Program-made: the position numbers and the translations under genes
Notes under the pieces: model-generated
Databases searched by the model: none
Seen by the model: the letters and a program-made list of their open reading frames with translations, nothing else
What the model was told of the DNA's origin: nothing
Virus record (IMG/VR): IMGVR_UViG_3300037847_003835
Span: 1-30,276 of that record
Strand: one strand, 5' to 3'
Source of the DNA: a virus
DNA: 30,276 nt
Shown: positions 1,975 to 14,631 of the stretch, one piece after another
Layout: the number at the start of each line of letters is the position of its first letter
How positions within the stretch are numbered: position 1 is the first letter of the stretch

Positions 1975-2030
1975 GAGTTGGTCATTTAGTCACCTTTGGG
2001 CTATTTGTTTTGACTCCAATACTGGTTAGG

Positions 2031-2058
2031 CTCCTCTAGACGATCTAGGGGAGTTTTT
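2031..2058 (+). terminator. Rho-independent terminator after the fibre gene
   Basis: A 10-bp stem (CTCCTCTAGA / TCTAGGGGAG, one G-U pair) with a CGA loop is followed by TTTTT. It separates the tail-fibre cassette from the early region. Confidence 0.9.
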
Positions 2059-2083: not shown

Positions 2084-2115
2084 TGTTTACTTTTTCTAAA
2101 CATTAGTGTTATACT
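2084..2115 (+). promoter_or_regulatory. Early promoter with palindromic operator, copy 1
   Basis: The palindrome TGTTTACTTTTTCTAAACA (2084-2102) has perfect 6-bp arms, TGTTTA and TAAACA, 7 bases apart. A -35-like TTTACT (2086-2091) and a -10 TATACT (2110-2115) lie 18 bases apart, so the palindrome covers the -35 box and spacer. The same arrangement occurs at 4838 and, on the minus strand, at 15162. A protein bound here would control transcription start. The binder is unknown. Confidence 0.8.
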
Positions 2116-2147: not shown

Positions 2148-2462
2148 ATGACCAAATTTATATTTTTATGTGAGGAGCATGGGATCACAATACAAACAGA
2201 TTCCTACTGTCATTTTTTCGACAATGCCAAAAACGCAGCAGAGGCTGCTTTTAAGTTGATGCAAGGAGGTGATACTACAGACTGGGAAAACAATGAACCT
2301 CATAACCGTATTGTCATTCATAACGGTAATCAAGATGATTTGTTAGAGATTGCAAATTATTATAGTTTCACACAATACAAAGAAAGATTTCACTTATTAG
2401 AGGCTGTATTTTATGAAGAGGTACATCTTGCATTTTACATCAGAGGTTTATTAAATGAGTAA
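2148..2462 (+). CDS. First early-region protein, unknown (104 aa)
   Basis: I do not recognise this protein. It is a small soluble protein with no membrane segment, rich in aromatic and acidic residues, and has two Cys and several His but no clear zinc motif. It is the first gene behind the operator-controlled promoter at 2084 and has the strong extended ribosome site AACCAAAGGAG (2131-2141). Its end overlaps the start of the replication initiator by 8 bases, so the two are translationally coupled. First-expressed phage genes of this size often encode host-takeover or anti-defence factors, but nothing in the sequence shows that here. Confidence 0.8.
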   Translation: MTKFIFLCEEHGITIQTDSYCHFFDNAKNAAEAAFKLMQGGDTTDWENNEPHNRIVIHNGNQDDLLEIANYYSFTQYKERFHLLEAVFYEEVHLAFYIRGLLNE

Positions 2463-3081
2463 CTTTCAAAAGATATATGATGAAGAGTTTTATCTAATGT
2501 TTGCTCTTCCTTCTCAAGCAGGTCGAGTTCTAGCAGGACTGTTAAAGCACGCACAGCATAAAGATACACAAGTCAAGAATGGATATAGAATCAAATCCTG
2601 TTATCCTTCTCAAACTTCTATAGCTGCTTTCTTTGGTGTTACAGAAAGAACAGTTCGAAAAGGTGTAAAGCAACTTCAGGATCATGGGTTGCTTGAATGC
2701 AAAACAGAAGGAAGAAGAAATATCTATTCAATATTTTATCCAATAGGTTTAGATAATTTACAGGAATATCTCGAAAAAATACAGGATCAAATGAACCTAT
2801 GTCATGACAAAATACAGGATCAAGTGTGCAATAATATAGGATCTACTGTGACACAAATACAGGATCAAGTAGGACAGCAATATAGGATCAAGTGCGACAG
2901 TAAAAAACAGGGGCATATCAAAAAACGGTTGCATCTGGTCGATACAAAAGGCACTACTGAACAAATGTCAAAAGAGAAAAGAAAAGAGCAATTAAAAGAG
3001 CATACAAAAGAGAACAATATTTTTAATCAAGATCCATTTGATATTTCAGATCTACAAGACTTTTCTAACTGGAGAAAATAA
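2455..3081 (+). CDS. Replication initiator, winged-helix, lambda O-like (208 aa)
   Basis: Residues about 10-100 form a winged helix-turn-helix. An SYPSQTSIA-like segment (CYPSQTSIAAFFGVTERTVR) is the recognition region, followed by KQLQDHGLLE and a beta wing ending in IYSIF. This is the usual layout of phage replication initiators such as lambda O and DnaD-type proteins. The middle of the gene carries five iteron-like DNA repeats (2779-2891), two of them out of frame, so the repeat is kept at DNA level and probably is the origin. The C-terminal part is polar, Lys/Glu-rich and AT-rich at DNA level. It overlaps the upstream gene by 8 bases and its stop overlaps the next ATG. With its neighbour at 3081 it forms an O/P-like pair. 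The proposed role is to bind the iterons, open the origin and recruit the host helicase through the loader. Confidence 0.75.
   Translation: MSNFQKIYDEEFYLMFALPSQAGRVLAGLLKHAQHKDTQVKNGYRIKSCYPSQTSIAAFFGVTERTVRKGVKQLQDHGLLECKTEGRRNIYSIFYPIGLDNLQEYLEKIQDQMNLCHDKIQDQVCNNIGSTVTQIQDQVGQQYRIKCDSKKQGHIKKRLHLVDTKGTTEQMSKEKRKEQLKEHTKENNIFNQDPFDISDLQDFSNWRK
2779..2891 (+). other. Iteron array, probable replication origin
   Basis: Copies of ATACAGGATCAA lie at 2779-2790, 2812-2823, 2834-2845 (10/12 match), 2857-2868 and 2880-2891 (11/12 match). Start-to-start spacing is 33, 22, 23 and 23 bases, close to two or three helical turns, which puts the sites on one DNA face. The copies at 2834 and 2880 are out of frame with the others, so the repetition is not a protein repeat. 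All lie within the initiator gene, as in lambda ori. A strongly A-rich stretch follows at about 2965-3045 and could be the unwinding element. Each copy contains GATC. Confidence 0.72.
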
Positions 3082-3728
3082 TGCAACAAGAAAAAAAACT
3101 TACAGAAAATCAAATAAAAGCAATCAATAAATTTACAAGTTTGATTTGTGCAAACTGGTCAAGATTGGATACTCAAGAATGGAGATTTGCATTTACAAAA
3201 CTAGCCGCTGGAACATTTGCAGATTGTGATGCTGCTGTCATTGAAAAAGCAGCATGGCATGTTCTCCAAGAGATTACTTCCTCTTTTCCTCCTTCTATGG
3301 GTCAGATTCTTAATAAGTCTAAAGAGATAATTGGATCGGGTCGTGCTAGAGTTGTAAAATTACAAGCATGTGAAAAATGCGATCAAGGAAAAAGATTGAT
3401 TGTTTACTGGTTGTTAGAACATGAAACACATAGACACGTAAAACATAACGGTATTTGTGCATGTGATTGTCAATATGGAAAGGCACAACAGAAGAGATTA
3501 GGACTTGAGAATATACATGTCTGTGTTGGTAAGATGCAAGATCATCCTCGTTTGATAAATGATCGTATATGGTTTCAAACTCGAAAGGGTGAGAGACCGT
3601 CTTTAGAGATCGAGAAATATGATATGGATAACTTCTATAAGTTCTGTCCACCTCTGGCTACTGATTTTAGAAAGAAATATGAACATGTACTTCAACAAAT
3701 TGCAGATGCTCAAGAATTTAATAAATAA
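3081..3728 (+). CDS. Probable helicase loader with zinc-binding region (215 aa)
   Basis: Residues about 8-85 are helical and include W-x(7)-W spacing and the motif FPPSMGQI, as seen in phage G39P/loader-type N-terminal domains where a helical bundle ends in FPP-x-x-x-x-I. Residues 97-130 hold CEKC and CACDC, a likely zinc site. The rest is basic and polar. The gene directly follows the iteron-bearing initiator and overlaps its stop, the position of lambda P. I infer that it brings the host DnaB-type helicase to the origin. No Walker A motif is visible, so it is not a DnaC/DnaI ATPase. An alternative reading is a general early zinc protein. Family assignment is by motif memory only. Confidence 0.55.
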   Translation: MQQEKKLTENQIKAINKFTSLICANWSRLDTQEWRFAFTKLAAGTFADCDAAVIEKAAWHVLQEITSSFPPSMGQILNKSKEIIGSGRARVVKLQACEKCDQGKRLIVYWLLEHETHRHVKHNGICACDCQYGKAQQKRLGLENIHVCVGKMQDHPRLINDRIWFQTRKGERPSLEIEKYDMDNFYKFCPPLATDFRKKYEHVLQQIADAQEFNK

Positions 3729-3735
3729 TTCAATC

Positions 3736-3764
3736 TTGACAATACAACGATTTGAGAGGATAAT
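3736..3764 (+). promoter_or_regulatory. Near-consensus sigma-70 promoter
   Basis: TTGACA (3736-3741), a 17-base spacer and GATAAT (3759-3764) form an almost perfect sigma-70 promoter in the 82-base gap between the loader and HNH genes. It has no TGTTTA/TAAACA operator, so it should not be controlled like the other early promoters. Confidence 0.75.
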
Positions 3765-3810
3765 ATACGAAACTATTCTCTCTTTCCTCTTCTGTAATCA
3801 CAGGATAATT

Positions 3811-6807: not shown

Positions 6808-8502
6808 ATGGCAGGAAAGAAGAAGAAAGAGAGTATAGGAGAATATGTAGATATTGATTCACTTGTTGAATGGGAGCATAACCCCAGAATCAACACAGAA
6901 GCAGTTTCTAAGGTTGCAAGGTCTATAGAAAGATTTGGGTTTGCTTCTCCTGTAATAGCACGAGAAGAGGATTCAATGGTGATTGCAGGTCATACTAGAA
7001 TTGCAGCTGCTAGATCTCTAGGATTGCAAACTGTACCTGTTAGATATATGAAACTATCGAGAACAGAGGCTGAACTTCTAGCAATAGCAGATAATAAACT
7101 GGGTGAGATATCAGACTGGAATGAAGATATGCTTAAAGATATTCTTACCGCTCTTCCTGAAAATGATCTTGATGATATCGGATTCTCTCAAGATGAACTG
7201 GATTCACTTTTAGAAAACATAGATACAGAACTACCTCCTGAATCTGATAATGCTGTTTATGATACTGATTATGATGATGCAGATAATCTAGACCTAGAAC
7301 GCGTGAAAATAGCAGAAGAAGGTGGGATCTATGCTGTAGGAGATCAATATGTTCTATGTGGTGATTGTGTTGAAATATTGCGTAGTTTTCCTGATAACTC
7401 AATAGATAGTATTGTTTGTGATCCTCCGTATGGCATCGGCTTTATGGGTAAAGATTGGGATCATTCTGTACCAACTGAAGAATGGGCTAGAGAATGTTTT
7501 AGAGTATTAAAGCCCGGAGGTCATATTGTTGCTTTTGGTGCTACAAGAGCAATTCATAGAATGGTTTGTGCTTTGGAGGATGAAGGATTTGAGATTAGAG
7601 ATATGATCAACTGGTTATACTTCTCAGGTTTTCCAAAAAGCATGGATATATCAAAACAGATTGATAAAATGAAAGGAGTAGAAAGAGAAGTTGTAGGAGA
7701 AGATAATAGACCAAAACCATCCTATATGTTAGAAATAGGAAAAACAGAAGCAAACACTAGAAATATAACAAAACCAGCTACAGAAGAAGCACAATATTGG
7801 GAAGGTTGGGGAACAGCCTTAAAACCTGCTCAAGAGCCTGCTATCCTTTGCAGAAAGCCGATAGAGAAGGGTTTGAATGTATCAGAGAATGTTTTGAAGT
7901 GGGGAACAGGTGCGATCAATATAGATGCTTGTAGATTTGGATATGGTGATCCTTGTTGGGTAGGTAGTCAAGAGCAATTGAAAGATCACAATGGTTTTTC
8001 TAGTGTATATGTTGATCCAAAATTGCCAAAAGAAAAAGCAGATGATTATTTTGTTAAAGCTCCTGAAGGAGGTCGATGGCCTGCAAATATATATCAATGT
8101 GCAAAACCTTCAAGATCCGAACGTGAAACAGGACTTGATGATCTAGAGAGTAAAAAAGGACATGAAGCGGTTCATAGAAAAGAAGGAACTGCAGGTCTTG
8201 AGAATCCGAGAGCAGGAGCAGGAAGAACAGCAAGCGAGGTAAAGAACTTTCATCCTACAGTAAAACCTACCAAACTCATGGCATGGTTATGTCGTCTTCT
8301 CACCCCAAAAGGCGGGATCGTATTAGATACCTTTCTAGGCTCAGGGACTACTGGCGTTTCTGCATCTATGGAAGGATTCAAGTTTATAGGTACAGAAATG
8401 AATCCTGAATACTGTGATATTGCTCTTCAGAGAATCAAACATGCAACAGGTCATGATATAATGAAGGTTGAAGGTGTTATATTTGAGGTGTCAAATGTCT
8501 AA
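6808..8502 (+). CDS. ParB-like domain fused to N6-adenine-type DNA methyltransferase (564 aa)
   Basis: Residues about 10-135 are a ParB/Srx-type domain with NPR (25-27) and GHTR (61-64). Residues about 175-545 form an amino-methyltransferase with DPPY (205-208) and FLGSGTT (509-515). Motif IV precedes the AdoMet-binding motif, the beta-group order. DPPY favours N6-adenine methylation. The ~300 residues between should hold the target recognition part, and a HPTVKP segment lies before the FxGxGTT motif. ParB-methyltransferase fusions are known in phages and prophages, often near terminase genes. Likely roles are protection of phage DNA from restriction or marking DNA for packaging. The ribosome site GGGAG lies 7 bases before the ATG. 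GATC is unusually frequent in this genome, so GATC is a testable target, but this is inference. Confidence 0.88.
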   Translation: MAGKKKKESIGEYVDIDSLVEWEHNPRINTEAVSKVARSIERFGFASPVIAREEDSMVIAGHTRIAAARSLGLQTVPVRYMKLSRTEAELLAIADNKLGEISDWNEDMLKDILTALPENDLDDIGFSQDELDSLLENIDTELPPESDNAVYDTDYDDADNLDLERVKIAEEGGIYAVGDQYVLCGDCVEILRSFPDNSIDSIVCDPPYGIGFMGKDWDHSVPTEEWARECFRVLKPGGHIVAFGATRAIHRMVCALEDEGFEIRDMINWLYFSGFPKSMDISKQIDKMKGVEREVVGEDNRPKPSYMLEIGKTEANTRNITKPATEEAQYWEGWGTALKPAQEPAILCRKPIEKGLNVSENVLKWGTGAINIDACRFGYGDPCWVGSQEQLKDHNGFSSVYVDPKLPKEKADDYFVKAPEGGRWPANIYQCAKPSRSERETGLDDLESKKGHEAVHRKEGTAGLENPRAGAGRTASEVKNFHPTVKPTKLMAWLCRLLTPKGGIVLDTFLGSGTTGVSASMEGFKFIGTEMNPEYCDIALQRIKHATGHDIMKVEGVIFEVSNV

Positions 8503-14031: not shown

Positions 14032-14631
14032 TTATCCTATTTTATATTCTTTTTTCAGTTTGCTAGGAACAATGCCACCAAAAGAATCATAGTTTTTTAA
14101 TATTGCCTTAACGGATTCACGATCTAGGATGTACTTGCTTTTAAAGTAAGAGGAAATACTTGTATAAGGTTGTCTGTAATTCTTTTTGATGTATTGTAAT
14201 TCTTTTTGCCAGTTATCAGATCCTACAACTAGAATATCTTTAGGGAAATCTTCACCACGATACACATATAAACCAAGACCATGTCTAGCAATCGCCTTTG
14301 TAATACATCTCTGAATCGTTGTTATCACATCCTGACTAGTGAGATCTTTTACTGGTATAGATTTATTGTAGTGATTTGTTATTGCTAGATATTCAATGTG
14401 TTCTATGTCGTTAATTTGAACTCCTGCTTTAATCCAAGCTGTTTTATTATCGTGGTGATAATTTAAACCGTCTTTATTCTCATATACTGTTGATTTTGCA
14501 TTTGGATAGTTTGAGATCAATATCTTCCAAGCATCTGCCCAAGATAGATATTTAAGGTTTGCGGATCCTTTGGTTCTTACAAATTCATCGCAATTGATTT
14601 TTGATAATATTTCGAATGTTGATTCTTTCAT
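14032..14631 (-). CDS. Sak3/DUF1071-type single-strand annealing protein (199 aa)
   Basis: The N-terminus has the family hallmark YLSWADAW (28-35). The C-terminal half has DVITTIQRCITKAIARHGLG (101-120), followed by LYVYRGEDFP, the pattern of Sak3-type recombinases (DUF1071). These anneal complementary single strands in phage recombination and repair, and usually work with an exonuclease, which I do not see here. The C-terminus (about 140-199) looks like an add-on and may bind host SSB or act otherwise. It is the last gene of the minus-strand operon that starts at the 15162 operator. The ribosome site AGGAG lies inside the end of the small gene before it. Its 3' end faces the portal gene's end with only 6 bases between, so the transcripts converge. 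Confidence 0.8.
   Translation of the reverse strand: MKESTFEILSKINCDEFVRTKGSANLKYLSWADAWKILISNYPNAKSTVYENKDGLNYHHDNKTAWIKAGVQINDIEHIEYLAITNHYNKSIPVKDLTSQDVITTIQRCITKAIARHGLGLYVYRGEDFPKDILVVGSDNWQKELQYIKKNYRQPYTSISSYFKSKYILDRESVKAILKNYDSFGGIVPSKLKKEYKIG

Follow-up and report, generated by a model that had tools for sequence, protein, structure and literature searches.

The origin of phage lambda lies inside gene O, with four iterons that begin at nucleotide 349 of the gene and are spaced 20, 24 and 23 bases apart. In lambdoid phages each iteron is an inverted repeat, and in Stx phages, whose lambdoid origin is likewise located in gene O, the number of iterons is variable, six being found versus four in lambda (PMC7466680). 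The oriL of SPP1 is situated within gene 38 of the gp38/gp39/gp40 system (PMC6316719), and the origin of the S. aureus phage 80alpha (ORF20/21) appears to be embedded in ORF20 (PMC5499656). In the PLE satellites of Vibrio cholerae, the origin and the DNA-binding domain of RepA vary together (PMC8263062).

Here, we analysed a stretch of viral DNA of 30,276 nucleotides (IMG/VR record IMGVR_UViG_3300037847_003835, hereafter ‘the window’). Its segment 2779-2891 is very probably the iteron array of a lambda-like origin placed inside the gene of its own initiator, as the preliminary description of this DNA had proposed; conservation, concerted divergence, modular exchange and direct comparison with lambda all argue for this reading.

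As in lambda, the iterons are intragenic and come right after the DNA-binding domain (the array starts at nucleotide 325 of the gene), an A-rich, strand-asymmetric tract follows downstream, and the probable loader gene overlaps the end of the initiator gene in the way that P overlaps the end of O. The O-like PHROG families 678 and 391 are, moreover, common to O and the window initiator. Nevertheless, the window departs from lambda in several respects: the iteron sequence is another one and lacks clear dyad symmetry, there are five copies with one step of 33 bp, the initiator has no folded C-terminal domain, the proteins match neither the O nor the P Pfam families, the probable loader carries a cysteine-rich part in addition, and the A-rich tract lies further from the last iteron. 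Indeed, the best dyad in the window iterons has 0.52 of its 8-base arms complementary, versus 0.66 in lambda, so that they are not the inverted repeats known from lambdoid phages; Stx phage origins, which belong to close relatives of lambda and have palindromic iterons of the lambda type, differ from the window accordingly. As in the window, direct repeats and an AT-rich region are located in the initiator gene of SPP1 (oriL) and 80alpha, and a loader gene comes next (PMC6316719, PMC5499656), gp38/gp39 being likened by layout. However, SPP1 has oriR as a further origin and encodes a helicase of its own, whereas only one array is present in the window and no helicase gene was seen in it. Finally, the PLE origin is intergenic, whereas the putative window origin is intragenic. 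The locus would work like the lambda, SPP1, 80alpha and PLE systems, and it is not filed under the lambda O/P Pfam families.

The repeat array and the gene that carries it

The window corresponds to a complete phage genome of approximately 30,175 bp, since its first and last 101 bases are identical at 100/101 positions and contigs L005 and L006 are collinear with it across the end junction. Almost all of the genes share one strand; besides a gene for a Sak-type single-strand annealing protein (14032-14631), very few convincing minus-strand genes were seen. Rfam and tRNA scans gave no hits. A tail-fibre-like protein with imperfect YTDARARA-type repeats is encoded at 313-1974 in the window, 226-1506 in L004 and 3049-4434 in L006 (553, 426 and 461 aa, respectively), and these length differences suggest gain or loss of repeats. 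The features of the replication region are collected in table 1. Transcription from the promoter-like site of the replication operon would cross the iteron array. Judging from identities, the small upstream gene and the initiator vary in allele independently of each other. Between the loader gene and an HNH gene, a near-consensus promoter with an inverted repeat occurs in all three phages compared (window 3736-3784, L004 3340-3390, L005 6276-6325); this conserved site looks like a promoter with an operator.

Table 1. Features of the replication region, in positions of the window.
Position	Strand	Feature	Basis
2028..2056	+	Terminator-like hairpin and T-run, end of upstream tail-gene unit	Consensus scan
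2086..2115	+	Promoter-like site of replication operon, TTTACT-18-TATACT with TG	Consensus scan only; count no higher than chance
2148..2462	+	Small conserved-position gene upstream of initiator, overlapping initiator start	ORF, identities
2455..3081	+	Initiator gene, 208 aa; winged-helix domain ~1-110, tail 125-208 of low confidence	HTH_36, PHROG, AlphaFold2
2599..2694	+	HTH_36-match codons, residues 49-80	Pfam match, AlphaFold2 model
2644-2682	+	Recognition helix, ~residues 64-76	Pfam match, AlphaFold2 model
2779..2790	+	Iteron 1, ATACAGGATCAA	
2812..2823	+	Iteron 2, ATACAGGATCAA	
2834..2845	+	Iteron 3, ATATAGGATCTA, frame 1	
2857..2868	+	Iteron 4, ATACAGGATCAA	
2880..2891	+	Iteron 5, ATATAGGATCAA, frame 2	
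2969..3026	+	A-rich, T-poor tract, 12-bp period (CAAAAGAGAAAA), candidate unwinding element	TRF; AT and skew
3081..3728	+	Probable helicase loader, 215 aa	AlphaFold2; VIA-align
3736..3764	+	Promoter-like TTGACA-17-GATAAT overlapping GAGAG..CTCTC inverted repeat, right edge of replication unit	Consensus scan

A search of the window with ATACAGGATCAA returned three perfect 12/12 copies (iterons 1, 2 and 4), one 11/12 copy (iteron 5) and one 10/12 copy (iteron 3), spaced 33, 22, 23 and 23 bases apart, exactly as first described. Relative to the gene start, the copies fall in frames 0, 0, 1, 0 and 2, so that three reading frames are used and one DNA word yields three IQDQ peptides, one NIGST and one YRIK. 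The helical spacing that had been claimed for them holds only approximately: at 10.5 bp per turn, the offsets amount to 0, 3.14, 5.24, 7.43 and 9.62 turns, i.e. a slow progressive twist, the lambda iterons giving 0, 1.90, 4.19 and 6.38 turns for comparison.

Dinucleotide shuffles of the initiator gene never reached such an array (0/150). A codon-shuffle array score was attained in 1/150 cases, but this score is too coarse, as poly-K/E codons can form arrays, and a fixed-position synonymous test was used instead. With the protein held fixed and the phage's own codon usage, synonymous resampling reached the observed similarity between iterons in none of 100,000 trials (129/150 pairwise matches, versus a null mean of 93 and a maximum of 122), and the outcome was the same, 0/100,000, in all three phages resampled. 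Because multiple frames are used and neither the dinucleotide shuffles nor the resampling reproduce it, the repeat is a DNA signal; the earlier argument that two out-of-frame copies cannot be explained by a protein repeat is thus upheld. That an IQDQ-type peptide was the selected feature and the DNA repeat its by-product is hardly credible, even though the frame is shared by three copies and in-frame 24-bp repeats make up the arrays of L049-L053 (see below). Indeed, the other two copies give different peptides in other frames, the L005 repeat is also read in three frames, the region encoded by the array is predicted to be disordered, and the resampling speaks against it in three phages; for the window, L004 and L005, a protein-level repeat is largely excluded.

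The gene bearing this DNA signal encodes a winged-helix protein, as had been supposed from the letters alone: HTH_36 is its best Pfam model (E 9e-8), and the AlphaFold2 model displays a winged helix that is confident to approximately residue 110, confidence being low from residue 125 on. Owing to this low confidence, most of the array probably encodes a disordered tail, where constraints on the DNA would burden the protein little. The protein also matches several PHROG initiator and O-like families, at E ~1e-9. PHROGs 678 and 391 match both the window initiator (9e-9 and 4e-9) and lambda O (2e-35 and 3e-39), an overlap that lies largely in the wHTH region, and the L004 initiator matches PHROG 678 at 2e-11. 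PF04492 (Phage_rep_O), by contrast, is matched by lambda O (6e-36) but neither by the window initiator nor by its relatives, for which HTH_36 is likewise the best model. When its profile was compared directly with that of lambda O, the window initiator gave no meaningful match. No near relative of either the initiator or the loader was found among 50,697 phage records, and scans of bacterial genomes with the loader and the terminase retrieved no close relative.

In Pfam as well as in fold searches, the initiator matches general wHTH transcription factors best, and the operon promoter is upstream of the array, as would be expected if the protein bound in its own gene as an autoregulator that represses or tunes the operon, replication starting elsewhere. 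We consider such an operator improbable: in PHROG the protein matches initiators and O-like proteins, most of the protein in sister cassettes is covered by matches to DnaD-like loaders, and five intragenic copies approximately 22-24 bp apart, with an A-rich tract and then a loader-like gene behind them, agree far better with lambda and SPP1 than with a repressor.

The A-rich tract and the candidate loader

The A-rich stretch pointed out earlier is real and strand-asymmetric. Its segment 2977-3026 is 78% AT with an A-T skew of 0.54 (A over T), close to the lambda tract (76% and 0.47), and it is separated from the last iteron by about 80-85 bp, versus 4 in lambda. DNA stability in the genome is lowest elsewhere than at the array, and direct repeats without the strong dyad symmetry of lambda resemble plasmid iterons; both observations would suit a plasmid-type copy-control or incompatibility locus that titrates the initiator, strand opening taking place elsewhere, e.g. 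in AT-rich intergenic DNA near 2069-2110 or 4800. This is, however, quite improbable, as the window genome contains only single scattered near-matches to the iteron outside the array, with no second cluster, and as an A-rich tract adjoining the array recurs in sister phages. DnaA boxes are absent from the array region and show no excess genome-wide. GC skew, which had been put forward as a check on an origin at this site, displays no switch at the array, but skew says little here because nearly all genes are on one strand.

The 215-aa protein encoded next, whose start codon overlaps the initiator stop, is the probable loader. Its AlphaFold2 model comprises an N-terminal helical bundle (residues 9-86) followed by the cysteine-rich part. 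Among Foldseek PDB candidates, the top VIA-align match of the bundle is lambda P bound to DnaB (9oa1_Z), tied with AAA lid domains; this match is weak (Z 6.8, rmsd 3.0, 81 residues aligned, 17% identity) and within the chance range for helical bundles. Of the lambda P family, both PF06992 and phrog_109 are matched by lambda P itself and neither by the 215-aa protein or its relatives. Sequence gave no proof of homology to lambda P, since the hhalign score ranked 90/294 among shuffled and unrelated controls, and given this ranking the visible resemblance of FPPSMGQ / FLPSPGQ was set aside as evidence. As the fold match is within the chance range and the profiles are unsupportive, it is chiefly the order of the genes that makes a loader role probable. 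The position of a loader-like gene after the initiator stands as first described, whereas its likeness to lambda P is weak in structure and finds no support in sequence profiles.

Related phages and the exchange of initiator-iteron modules

A search for conserved iterons in related phages, suggested at the outset, found all five iterons kept in L004 and all five positions kept in L005. The L004 initiator is 70% identical to that of the window and its iterons are at equal spacing. Identity reaches 93% within the iterons versus 77% in the spacers, and codons for the same residue are kept at 18/19 sites inside the iterons, versus 71/107 outside (p 0.008). L004 also possesses an extra iteron copy in inverse orientation, within the loader gene (2824-2835), which is found neither in the window nor in L005.

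L005 is more distant, with an initiator 43% identical to that of the window and a next gene 80% identical. Its array keeps the five window positions (offsets 0/33/55/78/101) and frames exactly, while copies 2-5 are ATAGGTGAAGAAAAG-like and the first copy is degenerate; copies 2-5 are 81% alike among themselves, versus 48% when compared with the same-index window copies. Within the wHTH, the two phages differ most in helix 3 (25% identity) and the recognition helix (40%), residues 1-50 being 68% identical. Concerted co-divergence of an initiator and its binding sites would be expected to leave such a pattern, which rests on one phage pair because the two-gene form is found only in L004 and L005 besides the window (L006 is truncated).

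The same comparisons bear on a further proposal, namely that GATC in each iteron ties the origin to adenine methylation, as in P1 oriR. GATC is indeed present in all five window iterons, and likewise in L004 and L051. However, it is missing from the iteron region of L005, L048, L052 and L053, i.e. from four of the eight other phages checked, and it is generally enriched in the window genome (266 occurrences versus 149 expected from dinucleotides). The window also encodes a 564-aa protein with a ParB-like N-terminal domain and an N6/N4 DNA methylase (6808-8502), and the best curated matches of this methylase are of CcrM type, not Dam. The conserved GATC of P1 oriR-type origin repeats is therefore not a property of the window group, the methylation claim finds no support and is very improbable, and Dam-type methylation is unlikely as a mechanism common to these phages.

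Six more phages (the L048-L053 group) were reached through terminase relatives. In the slot of the window initiator they encode a larger initiator of approximately 330-336 aa, and a repeat array begins approximately 300-340 nucleotides into the gene, just past the wHTH codons. The repeats are GGATCACATGTT with a 24-bp period in L051, L049 and L050 (the last of mixed form), ACAGTAGAGACT spaced 42/24/24 in L052 and L053, and CA[AT]CA[CG][AG]TG spaced 24/25/24/24 in L048. The corresponding place in a distant relative (terminase 56%) is occupied by a 22-bp repeat, followed by a 90% AT tract. By codon shuffling, the in-frame 24-bp arrays of L049-L053 are indistinguishable from protein repeats and, taken by themselves, could be such repeats, and our argument consequently does not rest on them. 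In L049-L053, the two-gene cassette is replaced by the single 330-336 aa initiator, most of which matches a DnaD-like loader family, and a gene of 102-106 aa without window counterpart follows.

Across these phages, DNA-binding domains are 79-100% identical in all pairs with a common iteron type and 21-61% identical in all others. L005 and L049, for instance, share 91% identity in the upstream gene and 32% in the DNA-binding domain; L050 and L052 share 95% in the upstream gene, 83% in the initiator C-terminus and 35% in the DNA-binding domain. Iteron type thus tracks the DNA-binding domain rather than the flanking genes, which on sequence comparison is modular exchange, and iterons placed inside the initiator gene allow one crossover to move protein and site jointly. 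This linkage, like the array, its frames and conservation, the A-rich tract and the gene order, is established directly from the sequences. Tentatively, and at somewhat less than even chances, we suggest that at least six initiator-iteron specificities at one locus of one phage group arose both by exchange of DNA-binding-domain and iteron modules and by concerted divergence in place, with the register unchanged.

A proposed initiation pathway and its significance

Initiator binding, unwinding, helicase loading and use of the origin are what we infer from this arrangement. The replication operon would be transcribed rightwards, and the winged-helix domain of the 208-aa protein would bind as a multi-subunit complex to the five direct repeats, which follow one another at approximately two helical turns. 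The complex would destabilize the A-rich, strand-asymmetric tract, the co-expressed 215-aa protein would deliver the host (DnaB-type) helicase, and theta replication would then be begun by host primase and polymerase.

These results very probably extend lambda-style intragenic origins to a group of uncultured phages, in which the locus takes either a two-gene form (initiator and loader) or a one-gene form. The natural variants separate three things that are usually confounded, namely iteron sequence, iteron spacing and initiator sequence. Indeed, as iteron sequence and recognition helix change jointly between the window and L005, with spacing and frame unaltered, specificity and geometry become separately testable. 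The diversification of these origins may be driven by origin incompatibility between co-infecting phages, or by origin-targeting antagonists like Odn.
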